This document shows positions 438 to 19,358 of a stretch of 64,000 nucleotides of DNA, in pieces. Every line of letters begins with the position of its first letter. Positions within the stretch are counted from its first letter, which is position 1. The stretch covers positions 1 to 64,000 of the forward strand of contig CADALE010000004.1 of assembly GCA_902788705.1 (NCBI GenBank). The letters run 5' to 3'. A program made the translations under genes and the position numbers. This DNA comes from an uncultured Coriobacteriaceae bacterium (GTDB taxonomy: Bacteria; Actinomycetota; Coriobacteriia; Coriobacteriales; Atopobiaceae). The notes beneath the pieces were generated by a model. It was not told where the DNA came from, did not search any database, and saw only the letters and a list, made by a program, of their open reading frames with translations.

Positions 438-460
438 ACCTCTCAATGCCCTTCCTCTGG

Positions 461-2569
461 CTACCTGGCTAGCAGCTTCGTCAGTTTGCCGGAGGCAGTT
501 ATGACCGTTGTCCTCTTGGCTCTTGTCATCGCTACGTACACGAGGCTTCTCTCGGATTGCTGCACCTCTTCCTCATTGCCCTCTCTTCTTGCCTTGGAGA
601 CCAAATAGGTTGGGGGTACGATTCCGTCACTCATGTTTGCCAGGAATACGGTGTCAAACTCAAGGCCCTTCACACGGTGCATCGTGGCAATGCGCACGCC
701 ATCTATCGAGCGGTCGTCATCCCTTCTTGCCTTGAGCACCATCGTCTTGTGGCCGCGCTCCCTGAGCCCGACGGAATAATCATCCACCAATTTGTTTGTC
801 CTCAATACCACGCAGATATCCTTGGTCTCAAGGCCAGCCTTTTCCGCCACTGCGATTCGATCAGAAATCCAGTCAATCTCAGCGGTCGTATCGCGGAACT
901 CGTGCACCTCTGGCCGTTCTCCATGGATAAGCGATTGGGTTATCTCGTCCTCTACGTTTCCGTCGTCTGCCCCATCGAGGTCATCCCAACTGAGTCCCGC
1001 AATCACCGCGACTGCAGCCTTGCGGATTTCCTCCGGCGTGCGATAGTTGATGCGAAGCCTGCAGGCGCGCCCGCGTATGTTGATGCCGCAACGCGAAAGG
1101 ACTGCCTGCTTGCCATAAATGCGCTGGTGGGAGTCGCCCACGATGAAGATGTCGTTGGCGTGTTCCTCGCCCGCAAGCGCTCGGACCAGCTTGAAGGCTG
1201 GCGCAGAGAAGTCCTGCGCCTCGTCGACCACAACGTACGCATATGGCGCGGCCGTGGGATTCTGTTCCAACACGAGACGCGCGTCGCGCATGGCAGAGTC
1301 CACGTCACGAACTGAACGTTCGCGCATGAGCTGGCGGTAGTTCTCCACCACGCCCCAGATCTGCATGCGATCGCTGCGGCGCAGGCGTGAACCACGTCCC
1401 GCCCTCTTGGCATGGACATACGCTTCGAGCGTCAGCTCGTCCTGAGCGAGAATCACCTGAGCCCATTCGTCCGCGTAGAAGGAGGGCTCAAAGCCCAGCG
1501 TGCAGCCAGACTCAATGGCAGCATCCTGCCACAGCGACTCTAGCTCCTTCTGGTCATAGGAGATGCGGTATTCGAAGCCCTGCTCCTTGAGGAAGCGAGC
1601 GACCCAGGCATCAAGATTGAGGATGTCGATGCGCCGCAGCTCTTGGGTCGTGCAGAGCTTGCTCATGTTTGAACGGATATCGCTTGCAAGATTCGTGCTG
1701 AACGTCGTGAACAGTACGCGCTGGTCGCCCGTGCAACCCTTTGCAAGGGTCCGTGCCCTGTGCATGGCAACGACCGTCTTGCCCGTTCCTGCACCTCCCA
1801 GCACTCGGGCGGCACCGTTATAGGATCGGTCGACGATTGTGCGTTGTGACGGGTGGAGGAAGGTCCTCCACTTGTCGAGGGGCGAACGAAGGATGCTCGC
1901 TAGCTCCTCCTCACCCTCGACGACAACGAAGCTCCTGAGCGATGTGATGTTCTGCAATGCATTGCCAAGGTCGCTCGTGTTTTTGGGCGGATTGGTATCG
2001 GGTGCCATGACCTCGATGACCTCGTCGAACGAGAATCCGTTAGCCAGCCATTGCAGGCCTTCAAACGCATCGGCAGGTACGGAGGACGCCGCATGGTCGA
2101 GCTCGTCAAGCGAAGTGATCGCACGCACATAGCTTAGCTGCTCGCTGGGAACGCCTATCTTGGCCAGCTGCTCGTCGCTTACTGCAGCGAAGAGCGAGGG
2201 GGCTGCCTCGCTCTCAATGGGGGTTTGCTCCTCTACGACCTCATAGACCTGCAAAGAGCCGGTTACGGCGTTCACCGAGCAGCGACGCCTGCGTGCCCAC
2301 TCATACGCATCATCGTGATGGTCCACCCAAAGAAGCAGGTAGGTGCCCGTCTCCTGCTGGCGCACCACTATGCCACGATAGGTGTCGTCGATGCGCACTG
2401 AGAAGAACTTGCCGTCAGCATTGGCGATCTTTTCGTAATGGATGCCGGGCGAGGTAGGGTCCACTCGGAACTTGTTGATGAAGGTGCTTGTCTTTTGCTG
2501 GACCCGCTTGGGAAGCGCCGCGAATGCCGTGAGAAAGTCGGACGATATGGCTACGGTTGCTGCTGGCAT
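461..2569 (-). CDS. RelE-like domain fused to a UvrD/Rep-type superfamily 1 helicase
   Basis: 702 residues. Residues about 5-95 resemble RelE/ParE toxins (FLTAFAALPKRVQQKTSTF, then FFSVRIDDTYRGIVVR and a final YEWARR). The rest is a superfamily 1 helicase: Walker A GGAGTGKT at 258-265, Walker B VVVDEAQD ending near 453, and a C-terminal VYVAMTRAKR motif. It is expected to move on DNA with ATP; whether the RelE-like part cleaves RNA, binds DNA or is inert cannot be told from sequence. It starts 8 bp after the giant helicase stop, so the two are co-transcribed. Similar RelE-UvrD fusions occur elsewhere. A role in the same defence operon is inferred from position. Confidence 0.85.
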   Translation of the reverse strand: MPAATVAISSDFLTAFAALPKRVQQKTSTFINKFRVDPTSPGIHYEKIANADGKFFSVRIDDTYRGIVVRQQETGTYLLLWVDHHDDAYEWARRRRCSVNAVTGSLQVYEVVEEQTPIESEAAPSLFAAVSDEQLAKIGVPSEQLSYVRAITSLDELDHAASSVPADAFEGLQWLANGFSFDEVIEVMAPDTNPPKNTSDLGNALQNITSLRSFVVVEGEEELASILRSPLDKWRTFLHPSQRTIVDRSYNGAARVLGGAGTGKTVVAMHRARTLAKGCTGDQRVLFTTFSTNLASDIRSNMSKLCTTQELRRIDILNLDAWVARFLKEQGFEYRISYDQKELESLWQDAAIESGCTLGFEPSFYADEWAQVILAQDELTLEAYVHAKRAGRGSRLRRSDRMQIWGVVENYRQLMRERSVRDVDSAMRDARLVLEQNPTAAPYAYVVVDEAQDFSAPAFKLVRALAGEEHANDIFIVGDSHQRIYGKQAVLSRCGINIRGRACRLRINYRTPEEIRKAAVAVIAGLSWDDLDGADDGNVEDEITQSLIHGERPEVHEFRDTTAEIDWISDRIAVAEKAGLETKDICVVLRTNKLVDDYSVGLRERGHKTMVLKARRDDDRSIDGVRIATMHRVKGLEFDTVFLANMSDGIVPPTYLVSKARREGNEEEVQQSERSLVYVAMTRAKRTTVITASGKLTKLLAR

Positions 2570-2577
2570 GTGGACTC

Positions 2578-5500
2578 CTATTCAAAAGCCGAGCGTATCT
2601 CGGCGTCCGTCATATCGGGCTTGATGATGCTCCAACCGTTTTCGATGAAGACGCCGGCATCCTCTTCTTGGTCGGGCGTGAGGTAGCAGACGTGTGAGTC
2701 GGGCCATGCTAGTTCTGCCATGGCATCGCCGCACCCCTCGTATCCGTCGTACCCGATGTCGTCGATGCCCGGTGCGGCGACACCCAGCGTGGCAAGCCTG
2801 CGGGCGAAGTCCTTGCTGGTATCGCCAAACAGATAGTTGATGACCTCTTGCCAAGCGTCGTCCTCGAGCTGTGCCTTCTGCGCGGAAGCAGGTTCGACGG
2901 ATGTGGACGGCCCCGCATCCAACTTGGCATATTCGCTGTCCAACAGGCCACGCATGGTTACGGCTCTGAAGGCTTCCTCAAACTGCATGAGGTTAAAGAG
3001 GTCGAGATACCCATTCCAATTGCGCCTGAAGGCCTTTGCGTCGGGCTCGGTGTCGTCAAGGACGGCATAGACCACCGTAAGGCTGTTCTTCTTCATGTCC
3101 TCGACATTGGCACCCGCGTAAACGCGCAGGTGCTCGTTTTCGGAAGGCGACCATCCTTTGAGCAACGACTTCTTGTCGTAGTCAAGTGGTGTGTACTCTC
3201 CGAAGAGGGCATACGAGACCTCGCTGACCGTGGCATTGTCGGAATCGAAGACCCTTCTGTCTGTCGTCACCCCGAGCATCCCCATGCCATACGCGGTCGC
3301 CTGGTGGGCGAAGCACGCCTCGGCTTCCTCGTGCGTGAGATACCACGCAAGGAGCCCGAAGGGGGTAAGCTTGCTCGGCACCAATGCGGAGGGCCTCTTT
3401 GCGACGTATCTGCTGTAAACGTTCTCGCTCGGCAACTCGGGAATCTTGAGGCAGTCGAGGTAGTAGTCGCTTGTGTGCTTGTCCAAGGCGGCCTCGACGT
3501 CTGCAAACGAAAGCCCCCACACACGGTACTTGCCGCTGCGCCGTATCGCCTCGCGTTTGACCGAATCGTCGGCCACCCTGCCCTTGTGGTATTCGAAGCC
3601 ATCGGTGAAGACAGCGATAGGAAGCCATTGCGCGGGTGTGACATGGCGCGTCTTGGGCCACAGGACGAAGTCGGGCTTGCACGGCACCGATACGCCATCC
3701 GCTGGGCCAAGCGACACCTGGGGCTCGACGTCCCACACGATAGGGCCAATCGTAAGCTCGTAGCCCATCTTGTCGTTGACGAGCTCCTTTACCACCCTTG
3801 CCTTTTCTCCCGAGGCACCGACTATGGTGGAAAGGGCGTCAACGAACTTCTTCTCGAGCTCGCTTTCCAGGAGGTTGCTTGGTTTGATGTCCGACACGGT
3901 CCTTACGGACACGACCTCGTTGTCAGGATCAAGCACCTCGTTGAGGACTTGTATAGCCCGCCGGCGCGACAGGCTGCCGATGTTCTTGGTCATGCGGTAG
4001 GCGAAGAGGCAGTGATAACAACCGTCACGGGTGGGATCATCGGCGCACGAGCAGCTGACGAGGGCCTCGCGTGCGAGGTCGAGCACCTCCATGAAGGCAT
4101 CCTTGCTCGATGAGAGCTGCTTGAGATAGCCCGTGCCACCTGGTACCGAGTCATAGAGGTCGAGATAGAGCTTGCGGTAGCCACTTCCGTCCGGGATGGG
4201 CTCGTCCGATATCGTGGCCCCGATGTGGTCCACGTTGCCGAACTTCTTGCGCATGCCCAGCATGACGGAGGCGACGAACGTCTCCTGGATGCTTTCGCCC
4301 TCTGCCACGAAGCTCGTTTCGGGAATGAGGATGCGCAGGGCTTCGCTCTTGAACTCGCGATAGATGAAGAGGCTGTCCTCGACCGCATCCTCTTCGTGCA
4401 CGTCGCCTGAGCGTACGGGGCACGAGTAGGTATGGTCGATGACCTCCTTGCCGCTCCTGCGGTCCTGGTGCGAGAGCATGCCGCATTTGGAGCAGAATCT
4501 GAATCCGGGGCGAATGGCCGGCTTTCCCGCGACATACGTCTCACGGCCCGCGAACTCTCGGCTCCTGCCGAAATTGACCTCGCGTAGCGTGGCGACGCTC
4601 GCGTATTCAAAGCCAAAGTCGAGGCCAGTTGCCTTGTTCGAGAGGTGGTAAGCCGGCTTGACGTCGTTCTGGTCTATCTCCACCAGGAGCTGTCGATTGA
4701 AGAACGCGCGGGTTCTGCTTTCGGACGAGTCGTCCGTACGGCTCTCCTGGTCCTCCACATTGGAAACGACCGTCTTCAGCTTCAGCATCTTGTGGACCTG
4801 CCCCGCATCGGCCCAGGCGGGCGAACCGCACTTGGGGCAGGTGGAGGCTGAGGTGGCGGGCACTATCCGCTCTGCATGGCTGCAGTTGGGGCAGAGCCGC
4901 CACAGCTCCTCCTCGCTCGTCGACAGATCGATCTGGTCGATGGTGAAGTGGCGTCCGCCGGCATAGAAGGTGTTGCTGGGGGCAAAGTCGGTGATCGCAG
5001 AGGCGGCCGCACGCGAGTACTCGCGTGTGGTGCGCTGCCAACGCGCCTCGTCGTCCCCGTCCGTATCCTCCTCTTTCCTGCGCACGACAGTTCGAAGGTT
5101 GACTCCATCCTCGGGGAAGGCATAGTTGGGTAGCAGGCTCTCCCGCGAAAGCAGGCCATAGACGTCCTCGTTGTCGATGCTCTTGATGACGTCTATGAGG
5201 GCGCGAAGCTCGTACCTTCGCTCCTTGAGCTGACTCTCAAAGGAACTATCTGCCGGCTTGCTCTCTAGGTCGGCAATGGCCTTCTTGAGGTCCTCAAGCT
5301 GCTTCTGGTAGCTCTCCCGCAGCTTCCGCCTGTCCTGGAATACCTCGAGCAGTCGTGCGGGCAAGGACAGCGGGTCGTCCTCTCCACCCATGATGAATGT
5401 CCTCAAGGCCTCCTTCGTCTGCTCGTCATCCGCGAGGTCGTCGCGGAACATGGTGAGGAACGTGTTGAGAAGCGCGCGCTTGTTCGCCTTAACGTACGAG

Positions 5501-8500
5501 AGGAAGTTGTAGGGGAACTTCGACCCGTCCTCCTTGCCGGGCGCCACTGCAAGCAAGCAGGGGCGAACGTGCGGTGGGACTATGGCATTGGCCACGCCCC
5601 GCTGCAGAATCCAGCTATCGAGGCAGAAGGCGACAAGCTGGCGCGCCAGGACGGCAGCCGCATGCAGGAACACGCGCGGCGGCTCAACGTTGCCCTCGAG
5701 CATCTCCTCTGGTGCGGCGTAGAAGTACATCCCCCGCGCATTGGCATCCGCCAACACGAGGCAGAAGGCGTTGCCGTCGCGTCGTCCTGCGCGTCCCACC
5801 CGCTGCAAGAACTGCGCCTGGCCCGGTGGCATGCCACAGAGCATGAGCGACGAGAGGTCTCCGATGTCGATGCCCATCTCGAGCGTCGGCGTACACGAGA
5901 GCACATTGGGATACCACGGCTTTGCGTCGGCGGCGGTCGCCTTGAACTGCCGCTCGAGCTCTTCGCGCTCGGTACGTTGGAGCAATCCCGTGTGCTCTGC
6001 GGCGCGCACGCGATCGCTCAGGCCACGGGTAAAGAGGCCACCGTAATAGTCGGGCCCCTGTTGCTCGCGCAGAGCCATTCTTCCCGGGCATCCTCCGTTG
6101 AGACAAGGGGAGCCGAGCCTGACGTCGATGTTGGCACCAGCCGCTTGCATGTGGGAGCCGCAGAGGGGGCATTCGAGCCGTGCGACGTCATCCACAACCC
6201 GCATCGCATTCTCTTTGATTCCATAGCACGCATAGCGCGTTTCACTGGCGAGCTCGACGAGAAGCCCTGCACGAGCGCAGGCGCGCGCCACGCAGTCAAT
6301 GGCTGCGGGTGGATTGAGCATATCCGGCAGGCACTTTGCCACGATGCGCGTCATGGTGTTGGAGCTCATGCTCAAGTACTTCTTGTTGTTACCCCGCTTA
6401 AGCAGAAACCTCGGAATTGTATCGGGTCCAAGGCCAGGCATATAGGGATTATGCTTGTGAGATATTGCCCAGCTGTTGCATCCGCAAGCCAAAAACTCAT
6501 CATAAGACAGATCGGCGATAGCCCCAGAATTGCGCAGCTCGTCAAGAAAGAGGACTACGAGTTTGCCCACATCTTCTCGTGAGGCCCTAACACCTTCCTC
6601 GTTGTGCAGGAGCTCACAAGCTTCGTCTACAGCCTTCTCTAACATAGATTCGTCATAGGCGATGGTTGCAACGCCGCTCTTCTCTAAAGTACGACCTATG
6701 TGACGTCTGAGGCCAAATTCAAGTATGGTCTCATAACGCATGCGCCTACTGATGGAGACGAGCAGTTGTCGAGCCCCTTCGCCGTCCGGCAGCCTGCCTG
6801 TATCCAACATGTGCTCGTAGTCGCGCATCCACAGATTGTTGGGCGCGAGGAAACGCGCAACATACTCCTCACGAGGCATGGCGCCCTTGAAGTGGAGCGC
6901 GAAGCCCTGGGCGAAATCGTCCAAGGCCATACCGTCCCCACCCTCGCCCAGCCACTGCGCCATTGCCGTGCGCAGGCCAAAGCGCCACGTACGTCCGTTG
7001 AAGAATCCCGCGCGATGCGAGGCATCCTGAACGTTGTCCGAGAAGGCGAGCGACTTGTTGTCATCGTCGAAGGCGCTGGCGAACATCTGGGACAGCGCGA
7101 CTTCCGCCTCGGTCGTATTGCGCAGGCCCATGAGCGAAAGCCCCTGGGGGCTGCCGCAATGCGGGCAAATGTATTGGCGCGATTCCGCGCTGCCCGAACC
7201 GCTGCGCGACGAGGTTGTGGGCTCCGAGATGAAGACGGGGATGCACTCAGTGTCACAGACGCCGCATGTATGCGAGCGCTCGCGCTCTCCCAGTACATTC
7301 TCCAAGGTTACGTGCAAGCAGTCTGGGCAGAGCCAGCCCACACGCAGGCTTTCCGGCCTTGGATCGTCGATGCTGCGCGGATACAGCGACACTATGTCTT
7401 CGCCCGAGCCAAAGTAGCTGTTGTAGAACGCGTCGAGGCTCTCGGGCTTGAGGTCCATGTCATGGTCGATGAGCGAGATCCATGCCGTCTGGCCACAGTC
7501 GCGGCAGTTGTGCAGGGGCAGGAAGTGCTTGCGCTCGTCTTGTTTGAGATTGATGGCGAGCTCAAAGCGCGTCTCGTCACCCTTCACCTCTCCGAGGAGG
7601 CGGGTAAGCTCGCGCGTCCAGAGCTGCGTCTGGACGGTCAGGAACGGTCGTGACCCTTCAGCTCGCGCATGGCTCACCAGCGCGACGAGCGCATCGATGA
7701 CCGTCTCGGGGCGTTCGATGTCACTCAGCCATGCATGCCTGTCTACGAGACGCTCAACGATCTCGCTCGGCTGGAAGAACGAGCCACCAACGGCCTCTAT
7801 GAGGTCGCAGAACAAGGTGTTCGACTTCAGCGCGGCCCCAAGCCTCTGCCGCGTCTCGTCATCTGAGGCATTGCTGCCCCGCATTGAGTCCATGAGTCTA
7901 TCGAGCGCCGCCTGCAGATACCCTTGCACGTCATTGGCGTTGACCAGCCTCTCGAGCTCGATGCACTGGGCCTCGCTCATGACGGGGTCGTCTTCCGGCT
8001 CGATTCCGCCCAAGAACTCGTCGACCGTCAGGCGGTCCTCGCCGATGACGGCTCCTTCATCGAACGGCTCTCCAAACACGTTCTGCGCATAGGAGAGCAT
8101 GCCCTTTCTGGATGCCTCTCCCGCGTCGCCCATGGTCGCGGAGGTGCCAATGCAGCAAAGGCTCCCCTGGGGAATGCGAAGCCGCGTCTTGAGGCGCCGG
8201 AGCAGGCATGCGAGATCGGTCCCCTGCGCTCCGTCGAAGGTGTGGATCTCGTCGACGGCAACGTACTTGAGGGGCGATACGTATGCGTCGGACTTCCATA
8301 TGTGGGTGTAGTCAGGCCGAATGAGCAGGTAGTCAAGCATCTTGTAGTTTGTGAGCAAGATGTCTGGCGGGTTGTTCTGCATAGTCTCACGATCGGTGAT
8401 GACCGTGTCGGCTCCCATGACGGGCGACCCCTTGCCCTTGTCGAGCCCACCCACGTACAGGCCAACGCTCACATTGCCCTTGAGGTTGGGGTTGTCCCAG

Positions 8501-8940
8501 ATGAGCTTGGCAACGCGTCCTGCCTGGTCGCTTGCAAGGGCGTTCATGGGGTAGATGATGAGTGCCTTTACGCCACGTGTCGCGCGATGCTGATAGCAGT
8601 ACTCCAGGATGGGGTAGAGGAAGCACTCCGTCTTGCCGGAACCGGTGCCGGTGGCGATGACCGTGGACTGGCCGTCCTCGCCCACGAGGCGCCTCCACGC
8701 CCTCTCCTGGTGCACATAGGGGAGGAACTTGGGACGCACCGCCTCAAAGCAATCGGGCATGGTCATCGCCGTGCGGAACGGCAGCCGTATGGCGGTGAAG
8801 GGCTCAAGATACAGTCCCTTGCCGCCTGCGGCGAAGGCGTCGAATGACGATTTGAACGGTTCGTTGGCAAAGGGGTACGTGGTGCGGAAGTAGTCCTCTA
8901 TGCCGCGCTGGAGCTGCCGGGCAAGAACAGAGGGAATCAT
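2578..8940 (-). CDS. giant DEAD/DEAH helicase with DUF1998 and C-terminal PD-(D/E)XK-like domain
   Basis: 2120 residues from the ATG at 8940, whose ATGA overlaps the stop of the DUF1016 gene; this start is preferred to one 24 bp upstream. Walker A GTGSGKT lies near residue 100, the DEIH box near 232, SAT soon after and helicase motif VI QRVGRAGR near 1040. Several Cys pairs (CRDCG, CPDC, CGVC, CPHCG, CPNC, CPKCG) suggest zinc ribbons. Near 1600-1640 the sequence has the DUF1998 pattern (PGGTGYL, then CSC...DGCYHC). Near 1756-1800, PDFVLWP, PIAVFTDGFEYHKG and KREAI resemble Vsr/DUF559-type nuclease folds. Size and order resemble Druantia DruE or a fused DISARM DrmA-DrmB. Probable role: DNA translocation and processing of invading DNA. 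Confidence 0.85.
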   Translation of the reverse strand: MIPSVLARQLQRGIEDYFRTTYPFANEPFKSSFDAFAAGGKGLYLEPFTAIRLPFRTAMTMPDCFEAVRPKFLPYVHQERAWRRLVGEDGQSTVIATGTGSGKTECFLYPILEYCYQHRATRGVKALIIYPMNALASDQAGRVAKLIWDNPNLKGNVSVGLYVGGLDKGKGSPVMGADTVITDRETMQNNPPDILLTNYKMLDYLLIRPDYTHIWKSDAYVSPLKYVAVDEIHTFDGAQGTDLACLLRRLKTRLRIPQGSLCCIGTSATMGDAGEASRKGMLSYAQNVFGEPFDEGAVIGEDRLTVDEFLGGIEPEDDPVMSEAQCIELERLVNANDVQGYLQAALDRLMDSMRGSNASDDETRQRLGAALKSNTLFCDLIEAVGGSFFQPSEIVERLVDRHAWLSDIERPETVIDALVALVSHARAEGSRPFLTVQTQLWTRELTRLLGEVKGDETRFELAINLKQDERKHFLPLHNCRDCGQTAWISLIDHDMDLKPESLDAFYNSYFGSGEDIVSLYPRSIDDPRPESLRVGWLCPDCLHVTLENVLGERERSHTCGVCDTECIPVFISEPTTSSRSGSGSAESRQYICPHCGSPQGLSLMGLRNTTEAEVALSQMFASAFDDDNKSLAFSDNVQDASHRAGFFNGRTWRFGLRTAMAQWLGEGGDGMALDDFAQGFALHFKGAMPREEYVARFLAPNNLWMRDYEHMLDTGRLPDGEGARQLLVSISRRMRYETILEFGLRRHIGRTLEKSGVATIAYDESMLEKAVDEACELLHNEEGVRASREDVGKLVVLFLDELRNSGAIADLSYDEFLACGCNSWAISHKHNPYMPGLGPDTIPRFLLKRGNNKKYLSMSSNTMTRIVAKCLPDMLNPPAAIDCVARACARAGLLVELASETRYACYGIKENAMRVVDDVARLECPLCGSHMQAAGANIDVRLGSPCLNGGCPGRMALREQQGPDYYGGLFTRGLSDRVRAAEHTGLLQRTEREELERQFKATAADAKPWYPNVLSCTPTLEMGIDIGDLSSLMLCGMPPGQAQFLQRVGRAGRRDGNAFCLVLADANARGMYFYAAPEEMLEGNVEPPRVFLHAAAVLARQLVAFCLDSWILQRGVANAIVPPHVRPCLLAVAPGKEDGSKFPYNFLSYVKANKRALLNTFLTMFRDDLADDEQTKEALRTFIMGGEDDPLSLPARLLEVFQDRRKLRESYQKQLEDLKKAIADLESKPADSSFESQLKERRYELRALIDVIKSIDNEDVYGLLSRESLLPNYAFPEDGVNLRTVVRRKEEDTDGDDEARWQRTTREYSRAAASAITDFAPSNTFYAGGRHFTIDQIDLSTSEEELWRLCPNCSHAERIVPATSASTCPKCGSPAWADAGQVHKMLKLKTVVSNVEDQESRTDDSSESRTRAFFNRQLLVEIDQNDVKPAYHLSNKATGLDFGFEYASVATLREVNFGRSREFAGRETYVAGKPAIRPGFRFCSKCGMLSHQDRRSGKEVIDHTYSCPVRSGDVHEEDAVEDSLFIYREFKSEALRILIPETSFVAEGESIQETFVASVMLGMRKKFGNVDHIGATISDEPIPDGSGYRKLYLDLYDSVPGGTGYLKQLSSSKDAFMEVLDLAREALVSCSCADDPTRDGCYHCLFAYRMTKNIGSLSRRRAIQVLNEVLDPDNEVVSVRTVSDIKPSNLLESELEKKFVDALSTIVGASGEKARVVKELVNDKMGYELTIGPIVWDVEPQVSLGPADGVSVPCKPDFVLWPKTRHVTPAQWLPIAVFTDGFEYHKGRVADDSVKREAIRRSGKYRVWGLSFADVEAALDKHTSDYYLDCLKIPELPSENVYSRYVAKRPSALVPSKLTPFGLLAWYLTHEEAEACFAHQATAYGMGMLGVTTDRRVFDSDNATVSEVSYALFGEYTPLDYDKKSLLKGWSPSENEHLRVYAGANVEDMKKNSLTVVYAVLDDTEPDAKAFRRNWNGYLDLFNLMQFEEAFRAVTMRGLLDSEYAKLDAGPSTSVEPASAQKAQLEDDAWQEVINYLFGDTSKDFARRLATLGVAAPGIDDIGYDGYEGCGDAMAELAWPDSHVCYLTPDQEEDAGVFIENGWSIIKPDMTDAEIRSAFE

Positions 8941-10076
8941 TTGCCTTCCTCCTCCTCGAGCCACTCGGCAAGCTTCTTCTGCAGGAGCTGCTTGTCGGGC
9001 AGGTAGAGCTTGTACTCGCGTGCGTAGATGTGAGCATCCTTCGGGAGTGTCAGCTCCACCAGGGCCTGGTCGCTTCGTTTGCAGAGCAGGATGCCGATTG
9101 TGGGGTTCTCGTCGGGCATTCGCTCGTAGCGGTCGTAGTAGTTCACGTACATCTGCATCTGCCCCAGGTCCTCGTGCGACAGAAGGTCTGCCTTGAAGTC
9201 CACCAGTACGTAACAGCGCAGGAACCTGTTGTAGAGGACCATGTCGAGGAAGTAGTCGCGGTCAGCAAAGCCAAACCGCTTCTGCCGCTTCTCAAAAAGG
9301 AACCCTTTGCCCATTTCAAGCAGGAACTCCTGTAGATGGTCGAGCACTGCTTGTTCTAAATCCGACTCATGGTAGGATGCCCTGTCTTGAAGCCCCGCGA
9401 ACTCGAGCACGAAGGGCGTCTTGAGCAGGTCCTGGGGCTTCTGCGGGGTAGCGCTTTCCTTGGCGAGCCGCATGACGTCGTCCTTGTCGCGGCTGAGCAG
9501 GAGCCGCTCGTACAGACTCGAGCCATACTGGCGGCGCAGGGTCTTTGCGTCCCAGTTGTTCTCTATTGCCTCGCGCTCGTAGAAGTCGCGCTCGGTATGG
9601 TCCTCGATGCGCATGAGCGTGAGGTAATGAGTCCAACTCAGGCGGAAGGGTCGATGCGCCTGTTCTAGCAAGTGGCCTGATTCCCCAATCTCGAATTGGG
9701 GAATTCCCTCCTTGGACGTCTCCGCCAATTCGCCAATTCGGAATTGGCGCATCTCTGGCTCCCGCTCCCGATAGGCAAGATAGAACTGGCGCATATACCC
9801 TAGGTTTGTCTTAGAGAACCCGCGCCCGTACTCGTTTGTCAGCGACTCCGATAGGGCCTCAATGACACGCTTTCCGTAGCCTGCGCGGCTGCTGCCCTGC
9901 TGCTCCTCCTCCACGATGTAGCGCCCAAGCTCGAAGCTCGTATAGACGGTTATGAGGTTGACCGCCTGCCCGATATAGCTGCGCGACAGCGAGACCAACT
10001 GACTGGCTCGGCGCAGCATCTCGTTAAGGCTTGTGCCCTCTGAGCCAGTTTGGAGTTCGTTGACCTTGCCCGCCAT
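8937..10076 (-). CDS. DUF1016 (YhcG-family) PD-(D/E)XK nuclease
   Basis: 379 residues. The N-terminal half has the DUF1016 helical domain (LGRYIVEEEQQG, YGKRVIEALSESL, GFSKTNLGYMRQFYLAY). The C-terminal half carries the nuclease core: YFLDMVLYNRFLRCYVLVDFK followed by GQMQMYVNYYDR, with D and the D-x-K pair as likely metal ligands. YhcG-like proteins are often passengers in type I restriction and other defence loci. The start has a clear ribosome-binding site (GGAAGGGAG about 7 bases upstream). The middle contains the near-repeated QFRIGELAE / QFEIGESG, encoded by DNA with two short perfect palindromes. It lies 99 bp after the methyltransferase gene and overlaps the next gene by 4 bp. Confidence 0.9.
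   Translation of the reverse strand: MAGKVNELQTGSEGTSLNEMLRRASQLVSLSRSYIGQAVNLITVYTSFELGRYIVEEEQQGSSRAGYGKRVIEALSESLTNEYGRGFSKTNLGYMRQFYLAYREREPEMRQFRIGELAETSKEGIPQFEIGESGHLLEQAHRPFRLSWTHYLTLMRIEDHTERDFYEREAIENNWDAKTLRRQYGSSLYERLLLSRDKDDVMRLAKESATPQKPQDLLKTPFVLEFAGLQDRASYHESDLEQAVLDHLQEFLLEMGKGFLFEKRQKRFGFADRDYFLDMVLYNRFLRCYVLVDFKADLLSHEDLGQMQMYVNYYDRYERMPDENPTIGILLCKRSDQALVELTLPKDAHIYAREYKLYLPDKQLLQKKLAEWLEEEEGK
9680..9749. repeat. two short palindromes inside the DUF1016 gene
   Basis: At 9680-9704 ten-base arms (attccccaat) flank a five-base loop. At 9731-9749 nine-base arms (cgccaattc) flank one base, and a direct copy of cgccaatt sits just before at 9724. Together they encode the paired QFxIG segments of the nuclease linker. 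Confidence 0.7.
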
Positions 10077-10114
10077 GGGCGCTCCCTTCCTTCACGCTTG
10101 CAATGCTTTTCGTG

Positions 10115-10147
10115 AGGCTTCCCTCACGCCATGCGTGAGGGAAGCCT
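10115..10147. repeat. perfect 15-bp intercistronic palindrome
   Basis: Arms of 15 bases (aggcttccctcacgc) flank a three-base loop in the gap between the methyltransferase stop and the DUF1016 start. No run of T follows on the coding strand, so it fits an mRNA-stability or partial-attenuation hairpin better than a full terminator. Confidence 0.7.
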
Positions 10148-10175
10148 AGCAGATGTCCCGGACAGAAATCGATAC

Positions 10176-13100
10176 CTACCCTTTGCCTGTACCGTACTTA
10201 TCAGCGAAGAAGGCCCATGCTGTACGGTAGTCCTCCACGCGGTCGCAGGTGTCGAAGGGTGCCACGTACTCGATGGTGCGCTCCACCGGTCCTCCGGGCA
10301 GGGTGTCGTCGATGTAGGTCTTGGGGTAGACGCCTGACGTGCAGGCATCTATGTCGCCAAAGGCGTTCTTGAACTCCGTGGGCTTGTACTTGAAGTTGCC
10401 CATGGCCTTGCGCGAGCACACCACACGGCCGTTGACGTCGTACCATGTCTCGCGCTCGTAGGACTGGAGCACCGAAAAGTCGAGCTGGTAGACGGTGATG
10501 AGCTGGTCGAGCGTGAGTCCGAGTGCCATCGAGACAAGTACGTCGAGCTCGACGAGTGCCTGCCGGCGCTGGTAATCCTTGCGCAGCGGCGTCTCCCAGC
10601 GCCACTCGTCCGTGAGGGAGGAGAAGGTGCTCGCGGGAAGGCGTGGGTCATCTTTTGCCCAGGAGTAGCTGGCGAACTCGGGCTGCCACACGTCACGCCA
10701 CAGGTCAGCGTAGTCGCGCGTAAGGCAATTGAGCAGGAGGGCACGGCAAGCGATTTCGTCGTTGAGGGGGCTGTCAGGTACGGGGAAGGACATCGTGGTT
10801 GCGTAGTTTACATGTCCTTTTCCATTGGCGCGCACGAAGTAGTCATAAGGAATCGAAGCGTAGCAGCCCGCCATCAAAGCCAGCAATTTCCCGCCGTAAG
10901 CGGGAAATTGCTGGTGTTTACCCGTGTCTCCAGACATGGGTACACACCATCCAAAGATGGTGTGTACCCATGTCTGACCCGGTGCTAGAATGGCTGCCTG
11001 CAGCGTTCGCTCACTGCTGCAACCAACGAACTCACGGTTCGCAAGCGCATAGTATGAAGTGAGTGGCTTCCCCCATGGAGTTTGAGGTACCCGCTTGCCC
11101 CACTCCTCAAGCGAGCATAATCTAGCGTATTTAGTTCTCACAAGATAATCTTCGCCTATTGATTCCAAATCAATCGCAAGATAATCATTGTTTGAATTGT
11201 ATTCTGTTTTTACACATTGCATAACTGGATTAAGAAGCCCAATGAATGGGGAGGCATAGATAGATTCACTTAAACAGCTGGGATGCGCGATGGAATCAAA
11301 AATGGTTCCGTCTTTTCGTGAGTTTGTTTCATTCCAGCATTGTGATGTCATTATGGTTATGCTTGTAGATCCCAACACATATTCTTGTTCGGCAAAAGCT
11401 CTCAGCACTTCAACCAATGATTGTGCATGTATTGATGGCACAAGCGTTTCTCCCAGCGACTCTCCACCAAATACTCTACGAAATACTTCGAGCTCACTTC
11501 CGGTGACATGAATGATTCTCGCAGGATGTCCTGTTAGGCACCAATTCCCATCGGAATCTCTAATCGCTGGCACCAATCCAATCCCATCGGATTCGTAAGA
11601 CTCGTCGATAGTGCTTGCAGAAAAAACGTTCGATATTGAATCGAAAGAACTCTGGCTACCATGAGGTCCGTATATATTGATTGAAAATCGCATTCTCCCA
11701 TGGTCATTTGTCCCTCTAAACAGATTGAGTTCGTTCTCAAATTGAAAATGCTTGCGATAGCGCAGGAACATCTCAGATTTAAGAAGGGCTGCGTTTGATT
11801 CTGAGAGTATGCCATCAGGATGAATGAAAGCTGTAATCCCGTGCGTAGCCAATGAATCCCATGCTCTAGGCAAGAAACAACGGTATAGGTTCGCCTTTTG
11901 TCCCTTGAGCAGCGGATAGTTCTGCACGGCGTTGAGGAAGCTCTTCTGTCCCGTCATCTTTACGTACTCGGACAGATACGTGTTACGTGCCGCAGGGTTC
12001 TCAAGCGCCTCGCCACGTTGCCGCGCCGTCTGGTCTGCCGAGAGCTTCTTGACGGCAAATCGTGGATCGTCGTCCGAGAGCACGGCCTGCTCGCTCCATT
12101 CCAACTTGATCCAGGGCGGGTTCCCTAGCAGCAGATCGAACCCGCCACGTGCCTCGAACACGTCTGCAAACTCCAGCTCCCAGTGGAAGAAGTGCTGGCG
12201 CTCGGAGATCTCTCTCACCACCGCGAGTCGCGGGAACTGGCTGCACAGCTTGTCGAGGTCTACCTCGTTCTCAAGACCGAACTGCAGCTGCATCTGGCGC
12301 AGCTCGCGGTCCTTGTCCGTCTGGAACTCCTCGCCCAAGTCCAGTTGCGTTTGCTGCATAGTCTGCTCTTCGACGCCCACCACGCCCGATACCGTGCCGA
12401 TGAGGATGAAGGACATGTCCATGAGGAACTCGTCGCGCGAGGGGAGTAGGTCCGCCTTGTCGATTGGCCAGAACCACAGCGAGCACCAGTAGTCCATCGC
12501 AAACTTGAGACGCGCATAGGGGCCGGCGTTGCGCGCATGTTCGCTGCGATAGAACTGGGCGAGCACCTGGTCCTTCTGGCGGATGCTCGTGCGGCTTGGC
12601 CGTGCCGCCTCGTCATGTCCGAAGCAATGGAGCTCATCGAGCGTCAGACGACGAAGCTCGCGCTGCTGCTCTACCTGCTTCTTCCACAGGTCGTCGACCA
12701 CGTAGGAGAGCTCGCGCAGGCTCTTGACCTCGTCGGTACGGTAGGGCTGCGTAAAGCCCTTCCGCCAGCGGTTGATATCAGCGATGGCCTGAGGTTCCAG
12801 ACCTTTGATGACCTTGTCCCCGTAGTCGGCCATGCCCGGGTCGCCTACCAAGAAGTGGTAGACGCGATGGCTCTTTGAGCAGCCCGTCTCGAAGCCCACG
12901 CGCTCAGGCTCGTGGTCGTACCAGCGGATGCCCTTGGTCTTGGAAGAGAGGTCCTTCTCGGTATATCCCTGCCGGCGTGCACCGATGAGCGAGTTGCCGC
13001 AGTGCAGCTGGTTGCCAAACCAGGGCACGTGACCGTCCTGGCTGATGGTGTTGAGCCAGAGGGATACCTCTCCCAGCTCCACGGCGATGGGGTTGAGGTC

Positions 13101-14951
13101 GATGCCGTACACATTGCGGTCGGCGATGAACATCTTGACGCGCTGCAGCTCGAGCTGTCGCTGGTCGTGCGGGATGGACTGTCCCAGCTCCTCCTGCTTC
13201 TTTGCGAGATACGCCTCTGCCAGCTGGTTGATCGCCTCGTTCAAGAATGCCGCCGAGCCCATGGCGGGCTCGCAGATGGTGAGGCTCAAGATCTGGTCGG
13301 CCGTCTTGCCCTGCAGGAGTTCCTTGAGAGCGTATTTGACGAGGCACTGCGTGAGGCTCTCGGGCGTGTAGTACGAGGCTGACTGCTCGCGCTCGCGCCC
13401 GGCCAGGCGATAGATGAAGTGTCCCTTCTCATAGGTCCTCAGCTCGCCGGCGCGAGGATCGGGCTTCTCGTAGCGCACCCTTTCGTCCTCGGTGTACTGG
13501 CCCAGCTCCGCCTCAGTGACGAAGTATCCCACGTCGAGCTCGTTGAATTTGTCCTTTGCCCGCTTGACCTCGTAGAGCGTCTCTTGGGCAATGAAGCCGC
13601 GATACGAGAGCAGGGCCTCGTACACGCTGCCCAGCTGGTTGATGCCGAGCGTACCGTAGCTCACGCGCTCGGAGCGTCCCTTTGCGGGGTGCGTGTAGCT
13701 CATCTTGTCGACGATCTGCAGCATGACGGAATCGCGCAGGCGTGCGCCGTCGATGAGTGGGGTGCGCTTGCGGTCGAAGATGTGTGCCTTGAGGGGCGGC
13801 ACGATAAAGACGTCGTTGGTGGAGCCGGCTGCGAGCAGGCTCTGGTACTGCTGCTCGTCTGTGGGGTAGCCGTCGTATACCAGCTCGCAGGCTATGCGGA
13901 GTGTGCGATCGATGTAGTCTGTGTCCGCTCCCGAAGCATCGATGCCGTCGCGGTGGCTCTCCGCAATGGTGCGGATGGACTCAAGCGAGTAAGACTTGAG
14001 ATAGGCCTCAGACTTGGTGGGCGCAAAGCCCAGGTCGGGTCGCGCCTCCATGAAGAGCAGGAAGAGCATGCGGTACATGTAGCGGAGGCATTCGATCGTA
14101 AGCTCGCCCGCGTCGATAGGGTCCTTGTCGAGGCCGTGGCCCTTGTTGTGCGTCCAGTCGTAGATGACCTCGTTGCCAAGTAGCTCCACGCACTCGCGCA
14201 GGGCGTATCGCAGCGAGTCGGACACCTCTGATGCGTGCTCGCGAGACTCGCGTTCGAGCTCGTCGAGCAGAATGTCGCCTGTCTGTGGGCAGAGGCTGCT
14301 GTATGCCAAGAACGTCGCCACCGCTTGGAAGGAGGATTCCTCGCGCCTGCGGAAGATCTCATCCATGTCGAAGGACAGGTAGCGCTTCTCTGGCCACTTG
14401 TTTCGGTCGACAAGCACCAGCTCCTTGGGACTGGCAAGGATGACGAAGCGGGCGGGATGTGCGACGTCGAGGAGCAGGACGTCAAGCGCCTCCTCGCACG
14501 AGAGGCCACAGGTGAGGGCATCCTCTTCTTCCGCAAGGCTCAGGGGCATCGTAGAGAGGAGGTCTTCCTCGCCCTTGGGCTGGCAGGCGATGACCCACAC
14601 GCGCGGCCTGTTGTCCGCGTCCCAATACTCTGCCATCAGGGGCACGAGGGTGCCGTCGGGAAGTGGTATCTGATCCGGCTGGGCTTCTGGGTACCCCAGG
14701 GCGTTGAGGTAGGCGTCCAGCATCTCGCGGGAGCTGTCTTGGGAACGACGCAGGCCGCCTTCTCCAAAGAGCCGGTAGTACAGCGTGCTGGTATCGCGCA
14801 GGTTCTGATAGGGCGTCCGCGCATCCGTGTCCTTGGCGACGGCCTTCCAGCCTTGGACGGCCTCCTTCACGCTCTGCTCGAAGTAGGTGGACAGATAGTG
14901 GTCCGTGTAGAACTCGTTGACGCTGCTGATGCCGGTGAGGTCTATAGCCAT
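10176..14951 (-). CDS. large Eco57I-type class I N6-adenine DNA methyltransferase (DrmMI-like)
   Basis: 1591 residues. SAM-binding motif I is EPAMGSAAFLNE near residue 560; catalytic motif IV is LLLGNPPWIK near 940, the NPPW form of N6-adenine methyltransferases. A long N-terminal domain (KRYLSFDMDEIFRRREE...) and a long C-terminal part, presumably for target recognition, surround the core. No separate nuclease motif is evident. Known members of this class protect self DNA in type IIG and class 1 DISARM-like loci. It starts three bases after the SNF2 helicase stop. DNA coding for residues about 1040-1290 is visibly AT-richer than the rest, and two perfect palindromes at 10880-10976 are translated in frame, adding a run such as WCVPMSGDTGKHQQFPAYGG. 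Confidence 0.88.
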   Translation of the reverse strand: MAIDLTGISSVNEFYTDHYLSTYFEQSVKEAVQGWKAVAKDTDARTPYQNLRDTSTLYYRLFGEGGLRRSQDSSREMLDAYLNALGYPEAQPDQIPLPDGTLVPLMAEYWDADNRPRVWVIACQPKGEEDLLSTMPLSLAEEEDALTCGLSCEEALDVLLLDVAHPARFVILASPKELVLVDRNKWPEKRYLSFDMDEIFRRREESSFQAVATFLAYSSLCPQTGDILLDELERESREHASEVSDSLRYALRECVELLGNEVIYDWTHNKGHGLDKDPIDAGELTIECLRYMYRMLFLLFMEARPDLGFAPTKSEAYLKSYSLESIRTIAESHRDGIDASGADTDYIDRTLRIACELVYDGYPTDEQQYQSLLAAGSTNDVFIVPPLKAHIFDRKRTPLIDGARLRDSVMLQIVDKMSYTHPAKGRSERVSYGTLGINQLGSVYEALLSYRGFIAQETLYEVKRAKDKFNELDVGYFVTEAELGQYTEDERVRYEKPDPRAGELRTYEKGHFIYRLAGREREQSASYYTPESLTQCLVKYALKELLQGKTADQILSLTICEPAMGSAAFLNEAINQLAEAYLAKKQEELGQSIPHDQRQLELQRVKMFIADRNVYGIDLNPIAVELGEVSLWLNTISQDGHVPWFGNQLHCGNSLIGARRQGYTEKDLSSKTKGIRWYDHEPERVGFETGCSKSHRVYHFLVGDPGMADYGDKVIKGLEPQAIADINRWRKGFTQPYRTDEVKSLRELSYVVDDLWKKQVEQQRELRRLTLDELHCFGHDEAARPSRTSIRQKDQVLAQFYRSEHARNAGPYARLKFAMDYWCSLWFWPIDKADLLPSRDEFLMDMSFILIGTVSGVVGVEEQTMQQTQLDLGEEFQTDKDRELRQMQLQFGLENEVDLDKLCSQFPRLAVVREISERQHFFHWELEFADVFEARGGFDLLLGNPPWIKLEWSEQAVLSDDDPRFAVKKLSADQTARQRGEALENPAARNTYLSEYVKMTGQKSFLNAVQNYPLLKGQKANLYRCFLPRAWDSLATHGITAFIHPDGILSESNAALLKSEMFLRYRKHFQFENELNLFRGTNDHGRMRFSINIYGPHGSQSSFDSISNVFSASTIDESYESDGIGLVPAIRDSDGNWCLTGHPARIIHVTGSELEVFRRVFGGESLGETLVPSIHAQSLVEVLRAFAEQEYVLGSTSITIMTSQCWNETNSRKDGTIFDSIAHPSCLSESIYASPFIGLLNPVMQCVKTEYNSNNDYLAIDLESIGEDYLVRTKYARLCSLEEWGKRVPQTPWGKPLTSYYALANREFVGCSSERTLQAAILAPGQTWVHTIFGWCVPMSGDTGKHQQFPAYGGKLLALMAGCYASIPYDYFVRANGKGHVNYATTMSFPVPDSPLNDEIACRALLLNCLTRDYADLWRDVWQPEFASYSWAKDDPRLPASTFSSLTDEWRWETPLRKDYQRRQALVELDVLVSMALGLTLDQLITVYQLDFSVLQSYERETWYDVNGRVVCSRKAMGNFKYKPTEFKNAFGDIDACTSGVYPKTYIDDTLPGGPVERTIEYVAPFDTCDRVEDYRTAWAFFADKYGTGKG
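10880..10914. repeat. perfect 15-bp palindrome inside the methyltransferase gene
   Basis: Arms of 15 bases (ccagcaatttcccgc and its complement) flank a five-base loop, cgtaa. The frame is open across it. Confidence 0.85.
10931..10976. repeat. perfect 21-bp palindrome inside the methyltransferase gene
   Basis: Arms of 21 bases at 10931-10951 and 10956-10976 flank a four-base loop, caaa. An upstream segment at 10919-10929 (tacccgtgtct) is a one-mismatch copy of part of the right arm and could pair with the left arm instead, giving two alternative folds. The reading frame continues through all of it. Confidence 0.88.
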
Positions 14952-14954
14952 CTC

Positions 14955-17789
14955 TTACGCTCCCACGAATGCGGCTTGGATGCGAATGTTGGGGTTGTCC
15001 TCGATCTCGAGGGTGTCGCTGACCCATTCGACGTACTGGTCAAAGAGGTCGTCAATCTCTGCTGCCTTTCGCGTGCGCACGCTCTCGAACGTGGGAAGGG
15101 CGAGCTGCACCTCCTTGTGCCGTTCGCGCAGGCGCTCCAGATTGTCACTTTCCTCGTAGATGTGCGGGTCAATCCTCTGTTTGTACGCATCGAAAAACTT
15201 GGTCATGTGCTTGTGCGCTTCGGCGACAACCAAGGGACAGAGCGTGCCGGCATGCTGAGCTTCCTGGTCGGTCGTCAGCAGCTGGTTGGGGATTCGCTCG
15301 TCATCGATCTCCGTCAGTTTGACGACCTGGTCGAGCGTGAGCTCACGCTCGAAAGACCCGTTCTCGAAGAGCAGACCGAACCATTCGTCTACGACAGGCG
15401 ACGACTTCCGGTTTGGGAAGATGCCCTGTACGAGGAAGAGGGTTTGGCCAGCAGCGAGTCCCTTGACGCCCACGAGAGGAGCTTCATCACGCTGGAAGAG
15501 CTGCATCGAGGCCTTGTCCTCGATCCACTCGAAGATCGGGTGCAGACGCCAGAGATACTGTGCCTGGGGCCAGTTGCCCAGTTCGAACTCCGTGCTGCGG
15601 GCGCGCTCGGCATCCTCCATGCAATACGCCTTGTCGGGACTGAGCACCAGCGTGTCGCTATTGACAGTGCGCTCTGGTGCGATCTTCTTGAGCCGGCGGG
15701 CAAGCTCGCCGCTCGGGTCGACCCGCAGGCGAAGTCCCCGCACCTTGTCGAGCTGCTGGCGGCTCTGGACGCCGGAGTCCTTGCCAAAGGCCTCCAGTCC
15801 TTCCTGCAGGAACTCCATGTCGTCGAGCAGGGTGTGGTCCTCGATCGTGGGAACCTGCCCCGCGGCCTGCTCCTGCGCCTTTTCGATAAAGAGGTCGAAG
15901 AGCGAGAAGTCGTCATCTCCACCGTCGTCGACGAAAGCCTGCTCAAACGCCTCGGCGTCTGAGCCAGTCTCGAGCGCCTGCTCCACCACGCGGGTCTCGT
16001 CCTCCACATTGAACTTGCCGAGGAGCATGGAGGGGTCCCCGATGTTGTCGTGCGCCTGCCTCTCCTTCTCGATGAGAATCTCTATGATGCGGGCATCACC
16101 TTTGATGCGGTCGTTCTTGGCTTCGGTCGTGAGGAAGCGAATCTCGGGCCGACGCTTCTGGCCGTAGCGGTCGATGCGCCCGTTTCGCTGCTGGAACACC
16201 ATGAGCGACCATGGCGTGTCAAAGTGGACAAGGCGATGGCAGAGATAGTGCAGGTTGATGCCCTCGGACGCCACGTCTGAGGCCACGAGCACCCGAACCG
16301 GCGCGGCCTCGTTGCCGAACTCTGCCACGAGGTCCTGTTGTTCCATGTCGCTCATGCCGCCGTACATGGTGCGGACTGCCGCATCGTCCATGCCGAGGTC
16401 GCGCTTCAGATGCTCGGCTATCCATCTCATGGTTTCGATGCGCTCGGTAAAGATGACCAGGCGGTCCGTCGCATCGCCAGGGTGCCATCCGAAGGCTGGG
16501 TCCCTCAAAAGGGTGAGCAGTCCCTGATAGCGCGAGAACGAACCTTCGCCTATGCGCCGTACAGCGTCATGGAATGCGCGTAGCTGGTCGGCGTCGTGCG
16601 TGCTGTCGGAATCGGTGCGATCGGAAATCCTTGCAAGCCTCTGCTCGATTGTCTTGAGGCATGCTGCGGGACTCGAGAAGAGCGCCTTCTCCAAGACGAT
16701 CTTGAAGAGGCTCGTACTTGCGCCTCGGCGCCTTGCGTCCATCTTGAGGTCGAGCTCTTCGAAGACGTCGTAGGCATGCTCTTCGGCAGGACTCGCGACG
16801 GTTGGCACGAGCTCCACGTTCCTCGACAGGAAGGTGCCAGCGGCTTGGTCGCGCACGTCCTTCTTGAAGCGGCGAACACAGAGGCCCTTGATGTCCTCGG
16901 GCGTGTAGCTGTCTGGGTCTGCAATCGCGGTCGGATCCAGCATGTTCATGAGCGAGGCGAAGCTGCGGGGCCTGCCGTCATGGGGTGTAGCCGAGAGCAT
17001 GATGAGCGTGTCCGAGCGGTTCTTGAGCCGTTCAGCCAGGCGGTTGCGCTGGGAGCGCGCGCCTCGCTCGGCGACGTTTTGAGCCTCGTCGACCACAATG
17101 ATGTCCCAATAGGCGTTTTCGAGGTGGATGCCGTACTCGACCCCACGCTTGATGGTGTCTATGGAGACGATCGCCTTGTCGTAATAGAAGAAGGGGTTGG
17201 CATTGGAGGGAAGCTCGGCACGAATGCGCTGGATCTTTGCGGAGTCGAGTCGCACGAGCGGGATGGTGAACCGGTTCCACATCTCCATCTGGAACTGTGT
17301 GAGCATGCTCTTCTCGGTGATCACGAGGATTCGCTTGCCCCTGCCACGTGCGATGAGCTCGCTCATGAGGATGCCAGCCTCAAGGGTTTTGCCCAAGCCC
17401 ACGGTGTCGGCTATCAAGATGCGCTGGCGAGTGTGCCTGAGCGCCTGGTACGCAGGTTCGAGCTGGTAGGTAAGCGGCTCCATGGCAGCGTGCTGACCGA
17501 CGTGCAGCGCATCGTCAGTGGGAATCTTGCGACGCAAGGCGCTCTCGAGGTAGAGCCTCGTGTTACGGTACATGGGGGAGGTGTCCACCACGAGCTTGGT
17601 GTGGGCGGGGTCTACTGGCGTGACTTCATCCAGGTCAGAGAGGAAGACAGCCTCGCGCCCATGTACGAGAGGGCTGATTCCCTCGCAGTGAAACGCCCTG
17701 CTGCCGAGCGTGTTGGTGTTGATGCGCTTTACGAGCCACTCTTCACCACGAATGAGTACGCGCGAGCCGGGGGCAATGTCTGCCGTCAT
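14955..17789 (-). CDS. SNF2-family helicase/translocase, DrmD-like
   Basis: 944 residues. The Walker A motif is ADTVGLGKTLEAG (GLGKT at 131-135), Walker B is VVDEAQN near 234, then LSATPHDGRP (motif III) and a C-terminal helicase domain with ASDVASEGINLHYLC and QRNGRIDRYGQ (motifs V-VI). The short GLGKT spacing and QRxGRIDR ending are typical of SNF2/HepA-like enzymes, including DrmD, which starts class 1 DISARM operons before an adenine methyltransferase, as here. It uses ATP to move along DNA. Its ATG overlaps the stop of the preceding small gene by one base (TAATG), so the two are translationally coupled. Confidence 0.87.
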   Translation of the reverse strand: MTADIAPGSRVLIRGEEWLVKRINTNTLGSRAFHCEGISPLVHGREAVFLSDLDEVTPVDPAHTKLVVDTSPMYRNTRLYLESALRRKIPTDDALHVGQHAAMEPLTYQLEPAYQALRHTRQRILIADTVGLGKTLEAGILMSELIARGRGKRILVITEKSMLTQFQMEMWNRFTIPLVRLDSAKIQRIRAELPSNANPFFYYDKAIVSIDTIKRGVEYGIHLENAYWDIIVVDEAQNVAERGARSQRNRLAERLKNRSDTLIMLSATPHDGRPRSFASLMNMLDPTAIADPDSYTPEDIKGLCVRRFKKDVRDQAAGTFLSRNVELVPTVASPAEEHAYDVFEELDLKMDARRRGASTSLFKIVLEKALFSSPAACLKTIEQRLARISDRTDSDSTHDADQLRAFHDAVRRIGEGSFSRYQGLLTLLRDPAFGWHPGDATDRLVIFTERIETMRWIAEHLKRDLGMDDAAVRTMYGGMSDMEQQDLVAEFGNEAAPVRVLVASDVASEGINLHYLCHRLVHFDTPWSLMVFQQRNGRIDRYGQKRRPEIRFLTTEAKNDRIKGDARIIEILIEKERQAHDNIGDPSMLLGKFNVEDETRVVEQALETGSDAEAFEQAFVDDGGDDDFSLFDLFIEKAQEQAAGQVPTIEDHTLLDDMEFLQEGLEAFGKDSGVQSRQQLDKVRGLRLRVDPSGELARRLKKIAPERTVNSDTLVLSPDKAYCMEDAERARSTEFELGNWPQAQYLWRLHPIFEWIEDKASMQLFQRDEAPLVGVKGLAAGQTLFLVQGIFPNRKSSPVVDEWFGLLFENGSFERELTLDQVVKLTEIDDERIPNQLLTTDQEAQHAGTLCPLVVAEAHKHMTKFFDAYKQRIDPHIYEESDNLERLRERHKEVQLALPTFESVRTRKAAEIDDLFDQYVEWVSDTLEIEDNPNIRIQAAFVGA

Positions 17790-17977
17790 TAGTCCTTCAC
17801 CTCCCGGGCGATGACGTCATCAGCTAGAAGTGCCGTGATATAGGCTGACACGCTCACGCACTTGTCCTCAGCCGCTTTAGCAATCGCCTTCTTGAGCTCG
17901 GGCGTCACGGCAAAGATGATGCGTTCGGTCTTTCGACCATTGAGCATGACCTTGCGGGTGTCCAGTTCTGCAGTCAC
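17789..17977 (-). CDS. ribbon-helix-helix (CopG/ParD-like) small protein
   Basis: 62 residues if started at the GTG at 17977, which has AGGGAGG six bases upstream; an ATG at 17998 gives 69 but has no clear ribosome-binding site. The sequence RIIFAVTPELKKAIAKAAEDKCVSVSAYITALL has the beta strand, helix, turn and helix of ribbon-helix-helix DNA-binding proteins, close to Arc/CopG and many antitoxins. As first gene of the defence operon it may repress it. It may also be the antitoxin partner of the RelE-like domain at the other end of the operon; this is inference. Confidence 0.72.
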   Translation of the reverse strand: MTAELDTRKVMLNGRKTERIIFAVTPELKKAIAKAAEDKCVSVSAYITALLADDVIAREVKD

Positions 17978-18002
17978 AGCGTCCTCCCTGCGAGACATAA
18001 CA

Positions 18003-19350: not shown

Positions 19351-19358
19351 ACTCTTCG

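Follow-up and report, generated by a model that had tools for sequence, protein, structure and literature searches.

A six-gene operon on the minus strand, at one end of a contig of a rumen-type coriobacterium, is very probably an ARMADA type II defense system with an embedded YhcG nuclease, carried on a tRNA-Glu genomic island. The window, that is, the whole stretch of DNA that was analyzed (64,000 nucleotides, genome G000), starts at the contig end (G000:C4:1), just past armD. The features discussed below are the following.

17789-17998, minus strand: RHH-like (NikA/MobC-like) protein, 69 aa from the ATG; weak Pfam NikA-like match, E 6.6e-5, below the cut-off
14955-17789, minus strand: ArmA, SNF2/RapA (BrxHII/DrmD-like) helicase-translocase, 944 aa
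10176-14951, minus strand: ArmB, PglX/YeeA-like adenine-N6 DNA methyltransferase, 1591 aa; Eco57I and N6_Mtase matches
10116-10146, minus strand: predicted hairpin of 31 nt within the 99-bp armB-yhcG gap, stem of ~14 bp, no U-tract
8937-10076, minus strand: YhcG (DUF1016/PDC-S02), predicted PD-(D/E)xK nuclease, 379 aa; YhcG_C E 9.5e-48, PDC-S02 E 1.9e-128
2578-8940, minus strand: ArmC, YprA/DUF1998 helicase with a putative C-terminal nuclease region, 2120 aa; DEAD, Helicase_C, and MZB matches
461-2569, minus strand: ArmD, RelE-like N-terminal domain and GajB-like UvrD helicase, 702 aa; UvrD match
18257-19075, plus strand: divergent 272-aa orphan gene (P0006), an island neighbor not assigned to the ARMADA system
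19304-19389, plus strand: tRNA-Glu(CTC) 3' end and terminator, a direct repeat marking one island end

Operon structure

The six genes are all open and form a single tight unit at 461-17998, as the first-pass annotation had recognized; its upstream limit of 17977 is an internal GTG, and the ATG start lies at 17998. The RHH-like gene overlaps armA by 1 bp, armA and armB are 3 bp apart, yhcG and armC share a 4-bp ATGA stop/start overlap, and armC and armD are separated by 8 bp, which leaves the 99-bp gap between armB and yhcG as the sole loose junction. A second species of the genus (G002) has the identical six genes in the same order, with 84-98% protein identity, so the operon is not a chance arrangement, and dN/dS values of 0.07-0.25 between the operon genes of the two species indicate purifying selection. 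In G002 the last gene is also armD, beyond which come an HNH gene and a tRNA-Glu gene; because that operon terminates at the same gene, no gene appears to have been lost at the contig end. The helicase and methyltransferase motifs of the operon proteins are intact.

Assignment to ARMADA type II

ARMADA type II was described in a preprint of September 2025 (Bell et al., PMC12458937), the text of which gives ArmA as a BrxHII/RapA-like helicase, ArmB as a PglX/YeeA-like methyltransferase, ArmC as a YprA helicase with a Vsr-type nuclease, and ArmD as RelE fused to a GajB-like UvrD helicase, and states a "strict gene order." The four corresponding proteins of the window match an E. coli plasmid copy over their full length and co-linearly, with identities of 44% (ArmA), 38.5% (ArmB), 34% (ArmC, over 2207 columns), and 44% (ArmD). 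The strict A-B-C-D order is kept, with YhcG interposed between B and C; homology and order together establish the ArmA-ArmB-ArmC-ArmD set. The E. coli reference locus, which has Zorya II and a DruH/DruE-type pair as neighbors, sits within a Zorya II-Druantia III-ARMADA II array that resembles one in PMC12458937. On a Cylindrospermopsis plasmid (L093), the ARMADA II genes are arranged C-D-A-B, a rotation that departs from the "strict gene order." No ARMADA was found in the phage records searched.

The first-pass annotation had suggested profile searches and a search for the six-gene order in other genomes. PADLOC (2023 library) scatters the proteins over DrmD, REase_MTase_IIG/DrmMI, PDC-S02, DruE, and GajB, and NCBIfam (June 2026) names no operon protein above the cut-off. 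The first-pass picture of a composite-looking operon with a DrmD-like helicase, a giant methyltransferase (DrmMI-like), YhcG, a DruE-like DUF1998 helicase, and a RelE-UvrD protein was correct. The order recurs in G002, and the YhcG arrangement recurs, decayed, in G207, a member of another genus of the family. Of the two alternatives that had been offered, a new subtype or a system already catalogued, the second is the case, the system being ARMADA type II and not a DISARM/Druantia hybrid. YhcG had been called an addition and is one, as is the small RHH-like gene; RelE-UvrD, also listed as added, is the core subunit ArmD.

Core proteins

ArmA has a Walker A motif at residues 128-135 and DEAQ at 234, and ArmB has NPPW at residue 944. 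The DNA of the window is 94% identical to and co-linear with that of G002 from base 210 to 19389, except at 10761-11868. This stretch corresponds to ArmB residues ~1001-1400, where the two proteins are ~30-54% identical (72% in one edge block), compared with mostly 88-100% elsewhere. On the simplest reading, the stretch would be an exchangeable target-recognition region that was replaced between the sister species.

ArmC aligns to the DruE of the same E. coli plasmid in two fragments only (33% over 248 aa and 22% over 781 aa). Residues D1757, D1780, and H1785 are invariant across 10 ARMADA helicases, and the PDF and FTDGxxYH residues are conserved. The predicted model of the 431-residue tail (pLDDT 78) gave no significant Foldseek match and gave weak but consistent alignments to PD-(D/E)xK enzymes (BsoBI, Z 5.6; TnsA, Z 4.0; also PspGI); no Vsr endonuclease was listed among the re-aligned structure chains. 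The putative assignment of this region as a Vsr-type nuclease follows the published analysis (PMC12458937) and the conserved residues. For ArmD, the AlphaFold2 model of residues 1-115 (pLDDT 89) matched RelE/YoeB toxins in Foldseek (best E 1.8e-5), a result that supports a RelE fold in the predicted structure. Neither the RelE-like domain nor the ArmC tail nor YhcG drew a useful match in sequence searches of the PDB. The RHH-like protein is 98% identical in G002 and is likely an autoregulator of the operon.

The embedded YhcG nuclease

Both the DUF1016_N and YhcG_C domains of YhcG score over the cut-off, and the predicted active site (D278 and D293-x-K295) is invariant. Two more lineages, G002 and G207, have YhcG within an ARMADA operon, with YhcG dN/dS of 0.11 between the window and G002 and 0.05 between the window and G207 (dS to G207 is saturated). 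The ARMADA copy of G207 (L097; G207:C4, 7341-9364) is decayed, and yhcG is its only intact gene. It consists of a C-terminal ArmB piece of 127 residues, a 387-aa YhcG that is intact (84% identical), and 64 residues of ArmC, the start of which still overlaps the yhcG stop; beyond the ArmC piece, a deletion joins to a piece of ArmD. The whole of armA is gone, as are the greater part of armB and of armC and, but for this piece, armD. The decayed copy adjoins ruv-like genes. The hairpin in the armB-yhcG gap shows two compensatory changes between the window and G002 and is absent in G207.

Within the class, the YhcG that comes next in similarity (70% identity) is stand-alone and outside any ARMADA operon, and three further YhcG proteins of the class, at ~48% identity, likewise lie outside ARMADA operons. 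Among 72,556 plasmids searched with a chimeric YhcG and ArmC query, none had the two side by side; YhcG in the slot between armB and armC was seen only in Coriobacteriia. On a Pseudanabaena plasmid (L092, 24019-25077), a YhcG-family gene 33% identical to that of the window lies ~3.5 kb downstream of an ARMADA II operon.

The 4-bp overlap probably means that YhcG and ArmC are co-expressed. YhcG might be the fifth subunit, and an obligate one, of an ARMADA subtype with five genes, a nuclease that cuts for ArmC/ArmD, as the overlap in three lineages, the purifying selection on YhcG, and the fact that no G000/G002-type operon without YhcG was seen would allow. We consider this unlikely, given that intact YhcG alone survives in G207, that its close relatives are stand-alone, that the armB-armC junction elsewhere carries unrelated genes or none, and that, according to the text of PMC12458937, E. 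coli ARMADA II functions without YhcG. Most likely, we infer, YhcG is an independent defense layer and not a fifth subunit; the tight coupling to ArmC, kept in G207, could mean that YhcG works with ArmC.

Equally doubtful is a YhcG that is a mere passenger passing through a defense island with no defense role. To our knowledge, YhcG has no settled anti-phage mechanism, and PADLOC lists it, as PDC-S02, as no more than a candidate; set against this are the intact active-site residues, the purifying selection, and the retention of the gene in three lineages.

The armB-armC junction

Gene-sized gaps were counted at the junctions of ARMADA II loci from genomes, plasmids, and viral-labelled contigs. 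They were found at 16 of 60 armB-armC junctions, 0 of 52 armA-armB junctions, and 0 of 63 armC-armD junctions (Fisher p 8e-9, uncorrected for kinship), which suggests that armB-armC is the single junction of ARMADA II that takes up additional genes. In a FastTree tree of 63 ArmC proteins, built from the loci gathered in the present analysis, the state of this junction changes at least 11 times. In E. coli, 514 of 5,426 genomes contained the greater part of the query spanning the junction, as one uninterrupted piece in each of the matches listed.

Besides YhcG, the cargo identified comprised a MoxR-like AAA fragment; an M78-like protein; an SLFN_AlbA_2 protein with one protein without family; a 284-aa protein without family; TmtA with DUF932; an AAA protein having a weak AbiEi match, with two proteins without family; and NsnABC immediately upstream of armC. 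TmtA is known as Tiamat and NsnABC as Menshen. In Streptomyces-like genomes (loci L264, L284, and L287), a cassette of a DUF262-type gene, an AAA gene, and a ~310-aa gene recurs beside armC, on its upstream side; in L287 the cassette is NsnABC by PADLOC. The armB-armC insert of L291 (G989:C2) has an apparent duplicate of the armB 3' end, flanked on either side by a family-less gene, a hint of cargo exchange by recombination on armB.

Three close pairs of loci differ by their cargo: Haematobacter pOT1-7 and Martelella pMM259 (96% identical downstream, 90% upstream), Nostoc NIES-25 and Aulosira NIES-50 (98% downstream, 88.5% upstream), and two viral-labelled contigs (75-77% DNA identity). In all three, homology restarts exactly at the armC start codon. 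It could be argued that there is no slot, the long actinomycete gaps being operons split around unrelated genes and the other inserts chance events, and several actinomycete gaps are indeed 5-20 kb long, contain genes on both strands, and may represent split operons instead of inserts. This explanation has little probability as a general one: 10 of the 16 loci have a gap of 0.6-6.9 kb with one to three genes, and these are the firmer cases of cargo; in the three close pairs, the armC start codon marks the exact end of the cargo; and the other two junctions lack any gene-sized gap. It is probable, though less so than the identity of the operon, that a dedicated slot lies exactly at armB-armC, where defense genes (YhcG, Tiamat, Menshen, AAA, SLFN-AlbA, and M78-like) have been repeatedly acquired and exchanged across Actinomycetota, Pseudomonadota, and Cyanobacteria, and where the cargo may cooperate with ArmC.

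Genomic island

The tRNA-Glu repeat at 19304-19389 has a 99% identical copy in an intact tRNA-Glu of the same genome (G000:C38:4825-4942, L107); G002 has an intact tRNA-Glu on one side of the operon and, ~20 kb away, a duplicate of its 3' end on the other (C29:5912-6028 and 26127-26227; L105 and L106). Judged by these repeats, the operon is located on a tRNA-Glu genomic island. Contig C38 probably contains its other end in G000; there, an SF1 helicase gene (6552-8834) follows the tRNA. The genes flanking the island differ between the window and G002, and the island is thus at different genomic places in the two species. No integrase was recognized in the ~20 kb of the island. An empty integration site was not found among relatives and could not be demonstrated, because their MoxR loci have no tRNA-Glu alongside. 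The text of PMC12458937 places E. coli ARMADA on tRNA-integrated elements, with which the island of the window agrees.

The 272-aa orphan gene on the island has no Pfam, NCBIfam, or PADLOC match and no plasmid relative, and is conserved in G002. Its GEADAI...LDFKL stretch resembles a PD-(D/E)xK site. A 98% identical copy was found in genome G007, in which no full ARMADA helicase was found.

Proposed mechanism and significance

According to the text of PMC12458937, E. coli ARMADA II gave protection from 13 of 80 phages, an effect that required each of the four genes, and infected cells remained intact, making it a non-abortive anti-phage system. By extension from the E. coli work, the exchangeable recognition region of ArmB would determine the sequence at which this enzyme methylates host DNA, and ArmA, as translocase, and ArmC, as helicase-nuclease, would engage unmethylated phage DNA, with ArmD (RelE-UvrD) also required; phage replication would be halted and the cell would not be killed. 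YhcG, as a self-contained PD-(D/E)xK nuclease, would have entered at armB-armC, apparently the sole junction tolerating cargo, and may supply an independent nuclease layer on the shared transcript.

The ARMADA II core is already published, as a preprint (PMC12458937), the main text of which makes no mention of YhcG/DUF1016 or of cargo at armB-armC; its supplementary tables may hold an entry. What appears to be new, on the basis of the sequences compared here, is ARMADA II with YhcG in Coriobacteriia, the exchange of the ArmB recognition region, and the evidence for one cargo slot. ARMADA is a new class of defense system, type II of which has been experimentally tested only in E. coli, and the present locus extends the range of type II to rumen-type Coriobacteriia with complete catalytic motifs. 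The armB-armC junction appears to be a socket for additional defense genes. Several of the slot genes match no family, which makes it a concrete place to seek new anti-phage genes; if the slot is real, reading it would be a way to find them. The YhcG-bearing ARMADA II is a testable case of layered immunity.

Comparison with known systems

With the ARMADA II of E. coli NCTC 12900 and ATCC 8739, the window shares the four full-length proteins, their order, the RelE-UvrD fusion, the single-chain DUF1998 helicase, and a mobile element setting bounded by tRNA direct repeats. It differs in having YhcG between ArmB and ArmC and a small RHH-like gene in front, in the location of its island at tRNA-Glu, in its coriobacterial host, and in that no Druantia III or Zorya II was seen adjoining the operon. 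The YhcG itself is a full-length match to the YhcG/DUF1016 family (PADLOC PDC-S02) with an intact PD-(D/E)xK motif; here it is nested in an ARMADA operon and overlaps armC, and the class relatives examined are mostly stand-alone.

Like class 1 DISARM, the window has a DrmD-like SNF2 helicase and, next in order, an adenine methyltransferase; unlike it, the window lacks separate DrmA and DrmB, having one 2120-aa chain, and lacks the PLD nuclease DrmC, with no PLD domain found in any operon protein by PADLOC, Pfam, or NCBIfam profiles. The first-pass annotation had suggested that the 2120-residue protein replaces DrmA and DrmB and had listed DrmC as absent; the protein is ArmC, with a full-length ARMADA II match, and nothing is missing from the canonical ArmA-B-C-D set. 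A new DISARM subtype (drmD-drmMI, fused drmA and drmB, and YhcG in place of drmC) is extremely improbable despite PADLOC matches to DrmD and DrmMI and an NCBIfam DrmD match, since the NCBIfam DrmD score of 337 is far under the cut-off of 610, the PADLOC matches of ArmB to REase_MTase_IIG (E 6e-226) and of ArmC to DruE models (E 1e-100) are far better than those to DrmMI (E 2.5e-60) and DrmA (E 4e-16), and the match to ARMADA II is full length. Membership in DISARM was rejected on the cut-offs, the missing DrmA, DrmB, and DrmC features, and the ARMADA II match.

ArmC resembles Druantia in being a large DUF1998 helicase of the DruE branch, but it aligns to DruE in fragments only, and the operon has no DruH or other Druantia partner; PADLOC found no Druantia component (DruH, DruM/F/G, or DruA-D) beyond the DruE-type matches of ArmC. 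Membership in Druantia was rejected, the partners of DruE being absent. The same PADLOC, Pfam, and NCBIfam profiles found no PglZ domain, the phosphatase of BREX, in the operon proteins.

Embedded accessory genes are known from other systems, namely, TgvAB inside a type I R-M operon (PMC11411939), HEC genes inside Hma (Payne et al. 2024, as cited in PMC11411939), and auxiliary nucleases in BREX loci (PMC12839542). As in these, an accessory defense gene is nested here in a multi-gene, methylation-linked operon; the differences are that the host system is ARMADA II and that all inserts seen lie at the junction between armB and armC.
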